Made by a program: the position numbers and the translations under genes. A DNA stretch of 64,000 nt from Thermotoga sp. SG1. GTDB lineage: Bacteria; Thermotogota; Thermotogae; Thermotogales; Thermotogaceae. Position 1 is the first letter of the stretch. Each line of letters starts with the position of its first letter. The stretch lies in contig NZ_LNDD01000005.1 in NCBI RefSeq assembly GCF_002865985.1, positions 124,001 through 188,000 of the forward strand, given 5' to 3'. Below are positions 20,808-29,882 of this stretch, piece after piece. A model generated the notes under the pieces. The model searched no databases. It saw only the letters and a program-made list of their open reading frames with translations, and was not told where the DNA came from.

Positions 20808-21884
20808 ATGGGCGAAATAGAACTGAGACATCTCCTCCACATGAATCCAGAACCCTCCTTTAAGGAATTCAAGACCCGGGAGATTCTCAGATCGGCGATC
20901 CAAAAGATCGGCTACGAAAGGATAGTGGAGGTTGCCGGAACGGGTCTGGTCGTTGAGAAGAAAGAAACAGAGGGGCCTTACGTTTTGTTAAGGGCGGAAA
21001 TGGATGCCCTCCCCATCAGAGAGGAGACAGGATGGGAGTTTGCCTCAAGAAACGACTACATGCACGCCTGTGGGCATGACTTTCACATGAGTGCCCTCTA
21101 CGGTGCAATGAAACGGTTGAAGACTGTACGAAAGAATTTCCTCTTTGTTTTTCAGCCTGCCGAAGAAACCGGTGGTGGTGCAAAGGAGGTTGTCGAGTTC
21201 CTCAGGAAAAACTACATCATCAAGGCTGCTGTTGGATTCCATGTAACGGACGAATACGACGTGGGAACGGTGGCGTCGAGGGTCGGGGTGCTGTTTGCTT
21301 CGGCGACGGAATTCGATGTATACTTTAAAGGTGTCCCCGCTCACATTGCCTTTGCCGAAAAAGGGAAAGATGCGTTGAAAGTAGCCGTCTCTTTCCTGCA
21401 CTGGCTTTACGGCAGAAAGTGGGATGCCCTTGTTGGTGTTGGGAAAATCGTTGGTGGCCGGGTGAGAAACGTGGTTCCTTCAGAGGTGAAGATAGAAGGT
21501 ACTATAAGGGCAAAGACTTTGAAGATAGCAGAGGAAATATTGTCGGAGATGAAAAACCAACTTTTGACTCTCAAAGACAGATCTGGTGTTGATTTTTCTC
21601 TCGAAAAGGGAAGTGTCTATCCGGAGGTAAAGGTCGACGCAGAGCTTCTGGAGATATTGAAGAAAAACTGCGAAAAATTGAACCTCAAGTTCATCGAATG
21701 CGAAATGAAGAAGACTGGGGAAGACTTTGGATACTTCACACAGGTGTTTCCATCTCTTTCCTTCTGGTTTGGTGTGGGAGAAGGGGAAAGGAGAGTGGGA
21801 CTTCATCATCCCTGTTTTCTACCAAGGGACGAGTACATACCTCTGGCATCTGAACTTCTTGCCTCCCTTGCGGTGGCAATATGA
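20808..21884 (+). CDS. M20 amidohydrolase, probable N-acetyldiaminopimelate deacetylase
   Basis: 358 residues of the M20/M40 metallopeptidase-like family. Di-metal ligands appear in MHACGHDFHMSALYGA and FVFQPAEETGGGAKEV. A dimerisation domain with HIAFAEKGKDALKVAVSFLH and the late HHPCFLPRDEYIPLASELL follow. Placed between lysA and the rest of a riboswitch-controlled lysine operon that also encodes an acyltransferase of DapH type, it most likely removes the acetyl group from N-acetyl-LL-diaminopimelate. The aminotransferase of that branch is not in the window. The start ATG directly follows the lysA stop. Confidence 0.9.
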   Translation: MGEIELRHLLHMNPEPSFKEFKTREILRSAIQKIGYERIVEVAGTGLVVEKKETEGPYVLLRAEMDALPIREETGWEFASRNDYMHACGHDFHMSALYGAMKRLKTVRKNFLFVFQPAEETGGGAKEVVEFLRKNYIIKAAVGFHVTDEYDVGTVASRVGVLFASATEFDVYFKGVPAHIAFAEKGKDALKVAVSFLHWLYGRKWDALVGVGKIVGGRVRNVVPSEVKIEGTIRAKTLKIAEEILSEMKNQLLTLKDRSGVDFSLEKGSVYPEVKVDAELLEILKKNCEKLNLKFIECEMKKTGEDFGYFTQVFPSLSFWFGVGEGERRVGLHHPCFLPRDEYIPLASELLASLAVAI

Positions 21885-21898
21885 GGAGTGTGAACGAG

Positions 21899-22309
21899 AT
21901 GAATCTGGAAGAGATTGTTGAGCAGTTGAAGGCAAAAAAAGTCAAACTGACGACACAGAGAATGGAAATCATAAAGTTCGTATCGAAGATGGAAAAAGGA
22001 CACTTCGAAGCAAAAGAACTGTTCTCTGTTCTTTCAAAAAAGATTCCATCCCTTTCCATAGCGACGCTGTACAGTACCCTGTACCTTCTTGTGGATCTCG
22101 GTGTGATATACTCATTCAGCTATGGGCAGAAAACTATCTTCGACTTCAACCCTGTACCACACGGACACTTCGTGTGCAAGGTCTGCGGAAAAATAGAAGA
22201 CATCGAGATAAAAAAACTGGATCTTGGAAAGGTCAGGGGAAAGAGAGAGAAGATAGAAATCGTAATACGTGGTGTGTGTGAAGATTGTCTGAAGAGGGTG
22301 AAAGATTGA
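21899..22309 (+). CDS. Fur-family transcription regulator (copy 2)
   Basis: 136 residues from ATG 21899, with AGGAG ten bases upstream; ATG 21881 overlaps the previous stop and is an alternative. Winged helix VKLTTQRMEIIKFVSKMEKGH with ATLYSTLYLLVDLGV, then the metal half VPHGHFVCKVCGKIEDIEI and a closing CEDCLKR with the second CxxC pair. It differs clearly from the copy at 9460-9915. It ends the lysine gene run, which is unusual for a metal or peroxide regulator; the genes it controls cannot be read here. Confidence 0.88.
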   Translation: MNLEEIVEQLKAKKVKLTTQRMEIIKFVSKMEKGHFEAKELFSVLSKKIPSLSIATLYSTLYLLVDLGVIYSFSYGQKTIFDFNPVPHGHFVCKVCGKIEDIEIKKLDLGKVRGKREKIEIVIRGVCEDCLKRVKD

Positions 22310-22698
22310 GGTTTTTCACCCAGTTTTTATCCATTCTTCTGATAGTTGTGGGCACAATCGGACTTATGGGATGGGTGGTTTTCTATTACCTTGAGCCCTA
22401 CATCTCCACTTTTCTGGGGGTTAGCGTTCCGGAGAGCTTTCTTGCGGTGTTGCTTTTTTTGTTTCTTCCGTTTCTCTTCTCGGGAATCTCCTTGAACTAT
22501 TACACTTCTTCTGGAAAGAAATGGCTTGTGGTGTTAGGCTTTCTTTTTCTTTTTCCTTCCCTGGGGGCCCAGCTCTATGGACTCTACATCTTTGGAAGCC
22601 TTGTTTCCAGAGTTATTGGTGTATACGTTCTCTTTTTACTCTTCACCATGGTGTTGCTTGCCTTCTTTCTGACCGTTATCAGGAGGGATGAACCCTGA
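22306..22698 (+). CDS. Small membrane protein, unrecognised
   Basis: About 130 residues from TTG 22306, which follows GAGGGTG by 5 bases and overlaps the Fur stop. About four hydrophobic helices are visible: LSILLIVVGTIGLMGWVVFY, SFLAVLLFLFLPFLFSGI, WLVVLGFLFLFPSLGAQLYG and VIGVYVLFLLFTMVLLAFFL. It ends in a charged tail (RRDEP). No family is recognised. The alternative TTG at 22285 would add seven residues. Adjacent to tmcAL, whose start codon overlaps its stop. Confidence 0.7.
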   Translation: MRFFTQFLSILLIVVGTIGLMGWVVFYYLEPYISTFLGVSVPESFLAVLLFLFLPFLFSGISLNYYTSSGKKWLVVLGFLFLFPSLGAQLYGLYIFGSLVSRVIGVYVLFLLFTMVLLAFFLTVIRRDEP

Positions 22699-23972
22699 AG
22701 GTCCTTGGTGTTGTGGTCGAATACAACCCGTTTCACAACGGGCACCTCTATCATCTGACACAGGCCAGAGAGATCGTAAAACCTGAGTATACGATTGCTG
22801 TGATGAGCGGGAACTTCTGCCAAAGAGGGGAACCCGCTGTGATAGATAAATTTGCCCGCACCGAGATTGCCCTGAAGATGGGGATAGACGTTGTTCTGGA
22901 GCTTCCGACGGCTTTCGCCATCCAGGATGCGGGTGGTTTTGCATTCGGTGCTGTGAGTTTACTCGATTCGACGGGTGTTGTCACAGACGTTGTCTTTGGA
23001 AGTGAATCCAACGACATAGATTTCCTGTGGCAGGTGGCGAAGATCCTTTTTGAACAGCCCGAGGAATACAAAGCGCTTCTGCACGAAGAATTGAAGAAGG
23101 GCTATTCCTTTCCAAACGCTCGTAAATTTGCTTTGATGAGGTATTTTTCTCTCAAAGGATGGAACGAAAAGAACGTTCTGAGACTCGAAAAGTCCAACGA
23201 CATCCTTGGAGTTGAATATCTGCACTCTGCTCTTAGAATAGGGTCTTCGATCAGGTTTCACACGATAAAGAGAGTGGGGGCAGAAGAAAAGGATATTTCT
23301 TTCAAAGGAAAATTCTCAAGCGCCACAGCGATCAGAAATCTTTTGAGAGAAGAAAAGTGGAGCGAGGCCAGAGAATCCCTTCCCGAGGCGTCTTACGAGA
23401 TCCTGATGAGAGAGTTCAAAGAGGGAAGAGGACCTGTTTTTCTGGAGTATATGGGAGATTTCATGCTGGCGTTTTTCCGGTTGAAAGAAAGGGAATACTT
23501 TGAGAAAATACACGGGTTTTCCGAAGGACTTGAAAAAAGATTTCAGGTGTGTGCCAGACAGACAGGGTCGTACAAGGATTTTCTGGAGTGCGTCAAGGCG
23601 AAAAGATTCACTTTTTCACGAATAAGAAGACTGTCTCTCTTCTCTGTTCTGGAGATGAGTAAGGAATTCGTTGAAGAAAGCAACGAAAAGGGCCCTCAGT
23701 ACATCAGAGTGCTCGGTTTTACCGAAAAGGGAAGAGAGATCCTGGCGATCATGAGAAAGAAAGCAAAACTTCCCATTGTAACCAACATGTCTCTTTACAG
23801 AAAGGTGCTGGAAAAAACAGAACTGCCTGTGGATAGAAACCTTTTCGTCGAGCAACTGAAACTCGATGTGAAGGCAACCAACTTCTACTCCACGTTCTTT
23901 CCGTCGAAGGAAGAAAGATGCAGAGAAAGAGACTTTGCAATTCACCCGGTTTTTTTGAGAACAGAGACATAG
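22695..23972 (+). CDS. tmcAL: tRNA(Met) cytidine acetate ligase TmcAL (UPF0348)
   Basis: Makes N4-acetylcytidine at the wobble base of elongator tRNA-Met using acetate and ATP. The adenylyl-transfer core VVEYNPFHNGHLYHLTQAR contains the HxGH motif, followed by IAVMSGNFCQRGEPAVIDKF and FSSATAIRNLLRE-like sequence. The family starts M-KVLGxVVEYNPFHNGH; here KVLGVVVEYN is encoded but preceded by CTG at 22695, 7 bases after AGGAGGG (22681-22687). GTG 22713 would cut off the first strand. I therefore propose a CTG start (425 residues). The 3' end overlaps rsmB on the other strand by 31 bases. Confidence 0.9.
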   Translation: MKVLGVVVEYNPFHNGHLYHLTQAREIVKPEYTIAVMSGNFCQRGEPAVIDKFARTEIALKMGIDVVLELPTAFAIQDAGGFAFGAVSLLDSTGVVTDVVFGSESNDIDFLWQVAKILFEQPEEYKALLHEELKKGYSFPNARKFALMRYFSLKGWNEKNVLRLEKSNDILGVEYLHSALRIGSSIRFHTIKRVGAEEKDISFKGKFSSATAIRNLLREEKWSEARESLPEASYEILMREFKEGRGPVFLEYMGDFMLAFFRLKEREYFEKIHGFSEGLEKRFQVCARQTGSYKDFLECVKAKRFTFSRIRRLSLFSVLEMSKEFVEESNEKGPQYIRVLGFTEKGREILAIMRKKAKLPIVTNMSLYRKVLEKTELPVDRNLFVEQLKLDVKATNFYSTFFPSKEERCRERDFAIHPVFLRTET

Positions 23973-27563: not shown

Positions 27564-28917
27564 CTATTCTTACCACCTTCTGCAATTTTGCCTCTTCTGG
27601 GTATTCTATCCTGGAACTGAATATGTTAACGAGCACCTGTAGAAAGGCGTCTGAGATCTTTTCTAGCTCACTCAGGGTAATACCAGATTCATCGAGTTGC
27701 CTTTCGAAGAAGATGGAGGAAATGACATCCTCCACGCATTCTTTTATCTGAGTAACGGAAGGATTCTTCAAACTTCTGGATGCTGCTTCCACAGAATCAG
27801 CCAGCATTATGATGGCAGCTTCTTTGAACTGTGGTTTTGGTCCCGGGTAGCGAAATTCTTCCTCTGGTATGTCCTCAAACTGCTGTTTGGCTTTGTAGTA
27901 GAAGTACTTCTGTGATCTTGTTCCGTGATGCTGCGGGATGATGAATTCCACGAGCAAAGGAAGGCGATGTTTACGAGCAAGTTCTATTCCGTACTTCACG
28001 TGCTCGTTTAGAACAAGATGGCTCAGAGAAGGTGTTATGTCTTCGTGAGGGTTCTTACCGTCCCTTATGTTCTCTGTGAAAAAGTGGGGCCTTTTCATCT
28101 TACCTATATCGTGATAATAAGCACCAATTCGAGCCAGGACGGGATTTGCGCCTATCTTCTCTGCGGCTGCCTCTGCCAGATTTGCTACGATCACGCTGTG
28201 ATAGTACGTCCCCGGTGCTTTCATGGCAAGCATCTTCAGGAGAGGATGGTTCAGGTTTCCAAATTCGATGAGACCGAGGTTGGAATAAAGACGGCTCGTG
28301 TACTCCACATATGGAAGAATACCTAATACCATCACACCCGAGAGAATCGGATTGAGAAGGGCTGCTAGAAGATCGTACGAGGTGTACTCAATGTTCAAAC
28401 CAAATCTCATGAAGAGGTGAGTTCCTGTAAGTGCCAGTGACGTCAGAGCAGACGATTTCATAACATCGAGTCTTCTGTCAGCGTTTGAAAGGGTTTTTGT
28501 GGCGATCAAAACCGTCAGAAGAAAAGGCATGATCAGATTTATATCGTAATACCATCTGTACATGGAAATGATGGAAAGAAGAACACCACTTGTGAGGGCA
28601 ACCTCAAAATTGAACAGCAGACTCATCAGCGCAACCGGTATGTAGAGTGGGGTCATGAAAGGGCCAATTTCTGGAAGGGAAAATCCTATGAAAACAGTCC
28701 CCAGCAGGATCAAAGAAAGGTGTGTGTAAGTGTAAACCTGGCTGAGAGAGTATTTTCTGAAATGCCTGACGCTTGTTTCTACCAGTGAAAACCAGATTGC
28801 AAGAGTGACAATGCCTTCAGAGATCAAATTCATAGGTTGAAATCCTGTGCGAATATGTGCCATGAACAAAGATAAAAAGATGGTCGCTACTACGGCAAAC
28901 AATCGCTTTCGATTCAT
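27544..28917 (-). CDS. pgpH: 7TM-HD phosphodiesterase, PgpH-like (cyclic-di-AMP)
   Basis: 457 residues. About seven or eight membrane helices (for example LFAVVATIFLSLFMAHI and VMVLGILPYVEYTSRL), then a cytoplasmic HD domain: GTYYHSVIVANLAEAAAEK, RIGAYYHDIGKMKRPHFF with the HD pair, and IIPQHHGTRSQKYFYYKAK. This is the domain of PgpH, which hydrolyses c-di-AMP. The family's large extracellular domain after the first helix (total about 700 residues in Bacillus) is missing. It starts inside the phoH stop. Enzyme activity is inferred from the family. Confidence 0.88.
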   Translation of the reverse strand: MNRKRLFAVVATIFLSLFMAHIRTGFQPMNLISEGIVTLAIWFSLVETSVRHFRKYSLSQVYTYTHLSLILLGTVFIGFSLPEIGPFMTPLYIPVALMSLLFNFEVALTSGVLLSIISMYRWYYDINLIMPFLLTVLIATKTLSNADRRLDVMKSSALTSLALTGTHLFMRFGLNIEYTSYDLLAALLNPILSGVMVLGILPYVEYTSRLYSNLGLIEFGNLNHPLLKMLAMKAPGTYYHSVIVANLAEAAAEKIGANPVLARIGAYYHDIGKMKRPHFFTENIRDGKNPHEDITPSLSHLVLNEHVKYGIELARKHRLPLLVEFIIPQHHGTRSQKYFYYKAKQQFEDIPEEEFRYPGPKPQFKEAAIIMLADSVEAASRSLKNPSVTQIKECVEDVISSIFFERQLDESGITLSELEKISDAFLQVLVNIFSSRIEYPEEAKLQKVVRIDGQNSG

Positions 28918-29882
28918 GACTTTCTCGACCTTTCGTATTCTTCGTAGGCTTTTATGATCTTCTTCACGAGAGGATGTCTCACAACATCACTTTCATCAAG
29001 ATACACAAATTCTATTCCAGGTATGCCCTTCAGTATCTTCTGACACTCTATTAGACCGGATTTCCCTTCTTCTATATCAACCTGTGTGATATCGCCGGTC
29101 ACAACCGCCTTTGAATTGAACCCGAGCCTGGTCAGAAACATCTTCATCTGCTGATAAGTGGTGTTCTGCGCTTCATCCAGAATTATGAAGGAGTTGTTCA
29201 ATGTACGCCCTCTCATGTAGGCAAGTGGCACGATTTCTATGATTCCCCTTTCACGATAACTGTTGAATTTATCTGGAGAAGTGATGTCAATTATGGCATC
29301 GTACAGAGGCCTCAGGTAGGGCTCTACTTTTTCTGTCAAATCTCCTGGTAAGAATCCTAACTTTTCTCCTGCTTCAACCGCTGGCCTTGTCAGAACAATT
29401 CTGTTCACTTTACCCATTTTCAGGTAATCAAGAGCGATAGCCACTGCCAGGTACGTTTTCCCTGTACCAGCTGGTCCTATCACGAAAACCAGGTCGTTTT
29501 TCTCGACAGCTTCTAGATACCTTTTTTGGCCCAAAGTTTTGGGTTTTACCTTTCTTCCAAGAACAGGGCCTCCGTTGTTTTTCGAGTAAACATCCTTCAC
29601 ACTTTCCGCGTTTGAAACCTTTTCCACTAAATACTCGAATTCGGTCCAGTCCAGTAAATGTCCGTCTCTTGTTATGGATATGATCTCGTCCAGGACGCGG
29701 TGTGCTGCTTCTACACTCCTTTCGTCTGAACCTTTTATGAGAATTTCACTACCTCGGACTGCGAGATCCACGTTGAACGTTTTCCTGAGGTATCTTGCTC
29801 TTTTATCGTACTGACCGAATATCTCCAACACGCCCACATCTTCGGGAATCCTGACTTTCCTAACAGTGATCGTGGTTCCCAC
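28914..29882 (-). CDS. phoH: PhoH-like ATPase
   Basis: 322 residues. An N-terminal KH-like segment (FNVDLAVRGSEILIKGSDER) and an ATPase core with FVIGPAGTGKTYLAVAIAL (Walker A) and NSFIILDEAQNTTYQQM (Walker B, DEAQ), then TGDITQVDI. Proteins of this type are thought to act on RNA with YbeY. The annotated GTG start overlaps its own SD site (GGAGG); codons ACG 29873 or ATC 29870 fit the spacing better; see findings. First gene of a six-gene - strand run to rsmB. Confidence 0.93.
   Translation of the reverse strand: MGTTITVRKVRIPEDVGVLEIFGQYDKRARYLRKTFNVDLAVRGSEILIKGSDERSVEAAHRVLDEIISITRDGHLLDWTEFEYLVEKVSNAESVKDVYSKNNGGPVLGRKVKPKTLGQKRYLEAVEKNDLVFVIGPAGTGKTYLAVAIALDYLKMGKVNRIVLTRPAVEAGEKLGFLPGDLTEKVEPYLRPLYDAIIDITSPDKFNSYRERGIIEIVPLAYMRGRTLNNSFIILDEAQNTTYQQMKMFLTRLGFNSKAVVTGDITQVDIEEGKSGLIECQKILKGIPGIEFVYLDESDVVRHPLVKKIIKAYEEYERSRKS

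Follow-up and report, generated by a model that had tools for sequence, protein, structure and literature searches.

CTG start codons are very unusual in bacteria. Inefficient start codons are nevertheless known from housekeeping genes of Escherichia coli such as infC and pcnB (AUU), where they limit the amount of product. In Staphylococcus aureus, infC (AUA), ccpN (AUA) and cvfC1 (AUU) have conserved non-canonical starts which lie behind an extended Shine-Dalgarno (SD) site and lower the yield, as described in excerpts of PMC13009471.

Conserved weak starts behind a strong SD are therefore already known (infC, pcnB, ccpN) and tmcAL of Thermotoga, as judged by comparison of genomes, is a new case that joins them. 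The gene lies in the window analysed here, a stretch of 64,000 nucleotides (G000:C5:124001-188000). It differs from E. coli infC and pcnB in the codon used, and any IF3-dependent regulation of tmcAL would be hypothetical. The S. aureus genes (excerpts of PMC13009471) are the closest parallel, since there, too, a weak start behind a strong SD is conserved across a genus or wider, but in tmcAL the codon is CTG and overlaps the upstream stop, and a lower yield is a prediction. Among the open-licence papers listed, none dealt with CTG (CUG) or any other near-cognate start in Thermotoga, and the text of PMC5622118 contains no 'CTG'.

Identity and start site of TmcAL

The tmcAL gene (22695..23972, + strand) encodes a tRNA(Met) cytidine acetate ligase of 425 aa, identified by alignment with PDB 5y0r and by matches to PF05636 (residues 2-407, 430.9 bits against a cut-off of 27) and NF010191 (residues 2-422, 453.7 bits against a cut-off of 360). 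TmcAL carries out the acetate- and ATP-dependent acetylation of C34 in elongator tRNA-Met (excerpts of PMC12514573). Translated from the CTG, the protein has HNGH, the nucleotidyltransferase motif of the N-terminus, following its first β-strand (LKVLGVVVEYNPFHNGH). The T. maritima TmcAL in PDB 5y0r, 5y0s and 5y0t is the same protein, with the same N-terminus, as the product of the window gene, and the genus-mate G001 carries it: residues 1-425 of G001 TmcAL are identical to 5y0r except for residue 1, which is M in the construct of all three entries whereas the gene has CTG.

The initial annotation placed the start of tmcAL at a CTG (22695..22697, + strand) preceded by the SD site AGGAGGG (22681..22687, + strand), and the window sequence bears out both the coordinates and the spacing of 7 bases. 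The reading frame runs TGA(22689)-ACC-CTG-AAG-GTC-CTT-GGT-GTT-GTG(22713)-GTC-GAA-TAC and stays open up to the stop at 23970-23972, while the in-frame TGA (22689..22691, + strand), one codon 5′ of the CTG, rules out an upstream start. A 16S tail able to pair with this SD (GGATCACCTCCTTTC) is present in six of the seven genus genomes, the seventh having given no 16S match.

Conservation of the start codon

A genome search found tmcAL in all seven Thermotoga-genus genomes, and in every one of them the gene starts with CTG behind AGGAGG, and no ATG, GTG or TTG separates the CTG from the in-frame stop. This alignment of Thermotoga N-termini agrees with the start originally proposed, and it answers the caveat that resequencing might reveal ATG, GTG or TTG at this codon, as seven separate genomes all carry CTG.

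In the phylum Thermotogota, tmcAL was matched in 98 of 103 genomes, 90 of which were tabulated (30 loci returned by the search and 60 fetched; the table leaves out G007, G010, G011, G012, G013, G016, G020 and G039). The aligned start codon was ATG in 50 of these loci, TTG in 26, CTG in seven, GTG in three and CCG, ATA, TTT or AGA in one each, so that CTG occurs only in the seven Thermotoga and a conventional codon occupies the start column in 79 of the 83 other loci. A GTG or ATG lies upstream in three of these odd rows, by one codon in the CCG row, four in the ATA row and two in the AGA row. The TTT belongs to Marinitoga lauensis (L036/L137), which has a TTG one base further, suggesting an indel in the record. 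A second set, taken from named genomes and comprising the best 80 of 588 loci (mostly Bacillota, some repeating genomes of the phylum set), showed ATG in 61, TTG in 11, GTG in four, other codons in four and CTG in none. Outside the genus, the nearest genome is G096 (68% identity), in which tmcAL starts within a TTGA and is likewise preceded by a related gene for a membrane protein. The CTG therefore probably arose by a single T-to-C change, at the wobble position of the final upstream codon, which turned TTG into CTG.

Translation might instead begin at a conventional codon further in, giving a shorter TmcAL, and the window does have an in-frame GTG at codon 7 (22713..22715, + strand). However, this codon is GTG in only two of the seven genus genomes (GTG, GTG, ATA, GTC, GTC, GTT and GTA), and the first in-frame ATG, GTG or TTG after the CTG shifts between codons 7, 7, 4, 8, 8, 8 and 4, far from the SD. 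A start there would also remove the conserved residues VLG, which align with the N-terminus of the family. The GTG is thus the worse start, as had been argued at the outset, and we regard the shorter protein as very improbable.

A CTG start agrees with all of the comparative tests, and actual initiation at the CTG is what we infer from this pattern. We hold with considerable confidence that CTG 22695 is the real tmcAL start throughout the genus, where it would be held by the strong SD and by ribosomes arriving from upstream, and read by fMet-tRNA. A CTG start kept across a genus is direct evidence, from comparison of genomes, that CUG initiation can be relied on by bacteria for a conserved gene of tRNA modification.

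Overlap with the upstream gene

The gene upstream of tmcAL (22306..22698, + strand) encodes a membrane protein with no match in Pfam or NCBIfam profile searches. Its TGA stop (22696..22698, + strand) overlaps the tmcAL start as CTGA, its own probable TTG start overlaps the stop of a fur-family regulator gene as TTGA, and fur (21881..22309, + strand; PF01475, 80.9 bits) overlaps the preceding gene as ATGA, confirming the series of parallel overlaps described in the initial annotation. Stop-start overlaps of the NTGA type are associated with translational coupling and re-initiation (excerpts of PMC2268962), and tmcAL, fur and the membrane-protein gene share this four-base overlap with them, except that in tmcAL the first base is C.

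The CTGA overlap is found in six of the seven genus genomes. In G005, the most divergent member of the genus, an extra G in the SD region makes the upstream gene (ending in LTIVRRG) terminate earlier, at a TGA one codon 5′ of the CTG. As G005 lacks the overlap and still has CTG, the overlap does not force CTG there.

Since the two frames overlap, a -1 frameshift at the CTGA could in principle join TmcAL to the membrane protein encoded upstream, yielding a fusion. We find this scarcely credible, since the site is not slippery (the last upstream codons being CCC, TCC, CGC or GAC), the PDB chain of TmcAL begins at the CTG residue, and the upstream stop of G005 lies in the tmcAL frame, meaning that no -1 shift at the stop could join the two proteins.

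Possible selection on the start codon

In the six genomes with the overlap, the C of the CTG doubles as the wobble base of the upstream gene's final sense codon. This codon reads CCC, TCC, CGC and, three times, GAC, so that the amino acid varies while the third base is always C. Among upstream-gene columns with at least three amino acids, the third base is kept in two of 29, the last codon being one of the two; overall it is kept in 21 of 120. Within tmcAL itself, the same seven genomes are invariant at 52 of 424 other codons, three of 34 all-Leu columns and one of 17 internal CTG codons, and at 13 of 116 fourfold sites (two of the 31 with C). Taken together, these counts put neutral invariance at roughly one in ten, which is not negligible, and the kept C at the tmcAL start is suggestive of selection but no proof of it.

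The weak CTG start could be retained because it results in a low dose of TmcAL, a proposal that we consider about evenly balanced. A serious alternative, to which we give somewhat less than even weight, is that the CTG is neutral: behind a strong SD at high temperature CTG would be about equivalent to TTG, and would have been kept by descent and not for regulation. The two codons are indeed exchanged within the genus in the MATE transporter gene (L174:9005-10366; CTG in four genomes, TTG in three) and in whiA (L174:16736-17608, - strand; CTG in three, TTG in four), so that a CTG need not be regulatory, and further near-cognate starts occur elsewhere on the same genome. Neutrality has to be weighed against the presence of the tmcAL CTG in all seven genomes at a base which otherwise varies.

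Probable mode of initiation at the CTG

The three G-C pairs of the initiator tRNA (GGG/CCC stem) are intact in all seven genus genomes, and we therefore found no relaxed-tRNA cause for the use of CTG. Inspection by eye of six genus 16S genes showed no change at positions 1338/1339 (G1338-A1339 unchanged), the stretch GAAGCCGGAATC matching by eye that of E. coli around these positions, GAAGTCGGAATC. In E. coli, CUG complexes are less stable than those on AUG, GUG or UUG and CUG initiation is inefficient in vitro, while start discrimination shifts when the anticodon stem of the initiator is altered or 16S carries G1338A (excerpts of PMC11497404). IF3 increases the dissociation of non-canonical complexes (excerpts of PMC8266586), and re-initiation requires a normal initiator tRNA and IF2 (excerpts of PMC2268962). 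SD binding in T. maritima is strong and adapted to 80 °C (excerpts of PMC3636130). Given that initiator tRNA and 16S 1338/1339 are both ordinary, the likeliest support for initiation at the CTG is the SD itself, together with ribosomes arriving from the upstream stop.

In such a mechanism, the strong SD (AGGAGG, 7-9 nt 5′ of the start) would keep the 30S subunit at the CTG, an effect to which ribosomes finishing the overlapping upstream gene may contribute through coupling. The initiator fMet-tRNA would then read CUG despite a C-U mismatch at the first codon position, and TmcAL would thus start Met-Lys/Arg-Val-Leu-Gly.

A regulatory role of a different kind can be envisaged by analogy with infC, in which the CTG would act as a sensor, with initiation tracking the level of IF3 or the state of the Met tRNAs modified by TmcAL. 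The analogy is with infC of this family (L173:12748-13257, - strand), which has an ATC start in all 14 family genomes and so conforms to the weak starts for which infC is known, and the substrate of TmcAL is itself a Met tRNA, modified at C34 of the elongator (excerpts of PMC12514573). There is, however, no direct link between the two; the mismatch at the first position of CUG faces U36 and not C34, and a single RNA fold around the tmcAL start is ordinary in energy (z -1.23). We judge a sensor unlikely.

Other non-standard starts

Contig C5 of G000 (335 kb) was compared with stretches of 360 kb from each of G003 and G005, and flagged genes were read by hand, which amounts to an 18% sample of the genome. 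Between G000 and G005 there were 305 real-looking genes, of which 293 had a conserved ATG, GTG or TTG with an SD. Eight genes, including tmcAL, were accepted by hand as having ATA, ATT, ATC, CTG or, probably, ACG starts, and whiA was ambiguous. The candidate starts of the ribonuclease G, DegV, ABC, heptaprenyl, MATE and infC genes were checked across 14 family genomes.

The ribonuclease G gene (L172:17018-18430; G000:C5:37018-38430) has ATA in all seven Thermotoga and in G096, and TTG in the other six genomes; its SD spacing is long (10). A DegV-family gene (L172:15611-16447) has ATT in all seven genus genomes. An ABC ATPase gene (L171:6668-7294, - strand) has ATA in all seven, G096 having an adjoining ATG, and a gene resembling component I of heptaprenyl diphosphate synthase (L185:15463-16038) has ATA in four genus genomes and ATT in three. 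The case of whiA was left ambiguous because in-frame GTG codons sit within the SD in G000; the PDB construct 3hyi begins four residues further upstream, perhaps at a GTG within the SD. Judging from these alignments, the CTG start of tmcAL is no lone oddity in these genomes.

Reading eliminated rnpA, a gene for a ribosomal protein, an L139 membrane protein and other candidates that have an ATG within a few codons, as well as internal positions flagged by the scan. As separate observations, the DegV-family gene is broken in G003 (L250), where a single match contains three TGA, three TAG and two TAA, and gene A719 (L187 region, G000:C5:318881-319453) has a perfect SD (GGAGGTGAT) followed by TTC CGT TAT and CTG or TTG, and was not counted among the accepted genes.

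A second comparison set G064 against G065, which belong to a different genus of the order, and covered 196 real-looking genes. Two were accepted by hand, with no ATG, GTG or TTG between the stop and the candidate start: an Asp/Glu racemase-family gene (L363:17907-18659; PF01177), with a CTG start in two species, and a gene which by eye is RlmI-like (G064:C1 728096-729259, - strand), with an ATT start in two species. In a third candidate, a CTG in a gene which by eye is MurD-like, the SD itself contains a GTG in frame.

The codon controls of the scan are not decisive. In a codon-agnostic control on 292 real-looking genes, the positions passing the filter were GAA (four), ATA (three), AAG and CTG (two each) and 15 other codons (one each). 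Near-cognate/other counts for a strong SD without an SD-bearing conventional start nearby were 6/14 (A-B), 6/14 (A-C) and 4/8 (D-E), including internal positions and neighbours, and a stricter version of the codon control retained D78 only. As the controls pick out comparable numbers of codons that are not starts, 8/305 and 2 or 3/196 are hand-read estimates and not tested rates, and the wider cases rest on hand-read cross-species alignment rather than on scan statistics.

The aligned cases, several of which are individually strong, suggest that Thermotogales accept near-cognate starts behind a strong SD unusually often. A broader version of this idea, which we put forward only tentatively, is that a few per cent of Thermotogales genes routinely start one base away from ATG (CTG, ATA, ATT, ATC, even ACG), with a strong SD at high temperature and an ordinary-looking initiator tRNA. 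Should this be true, gene finders which allow ATG, GTG and TTG would mis-start or truncate such proteins, and the tmcAL CTG would be the visible tip. In the re-annotation of T. maritima, start differences of fewer than 10 residues were left unresolved without peptides (excerpts of PMC3636130). The cases described here are a warning that gene starts in Thermotoga genomes may be mis-called in predictable places, and the CTG, ATA, ATT, ATC and probable ACG starts offer concrete sites for asking whether SD pairing replaces start-codon pairing at 80 °C.

The probable ACG start belongs to a second gene of the window, which encodes a PhoH-like ATPase (28917..29873, - strand; PF02562, 316.2 bits) and in which the ACG occupies 29873-29871. 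In all eight of the closest genomes (the genus and G096) this ACG lies 7-8 bases 3′ of GGAGG, while the flanking codons vary. In six of the eight, a GTG in frame falls within the SD and might serve as the start instead, whereas in G005 and G096 no ATG, GTG or TTG separates the ACG from the in-frame stop. A GTG one codon later occurs in five other family genomes, and G093 gave fragments or a paralogue only. On this comparison, ACG is probably the start of the PhoH-like gene.
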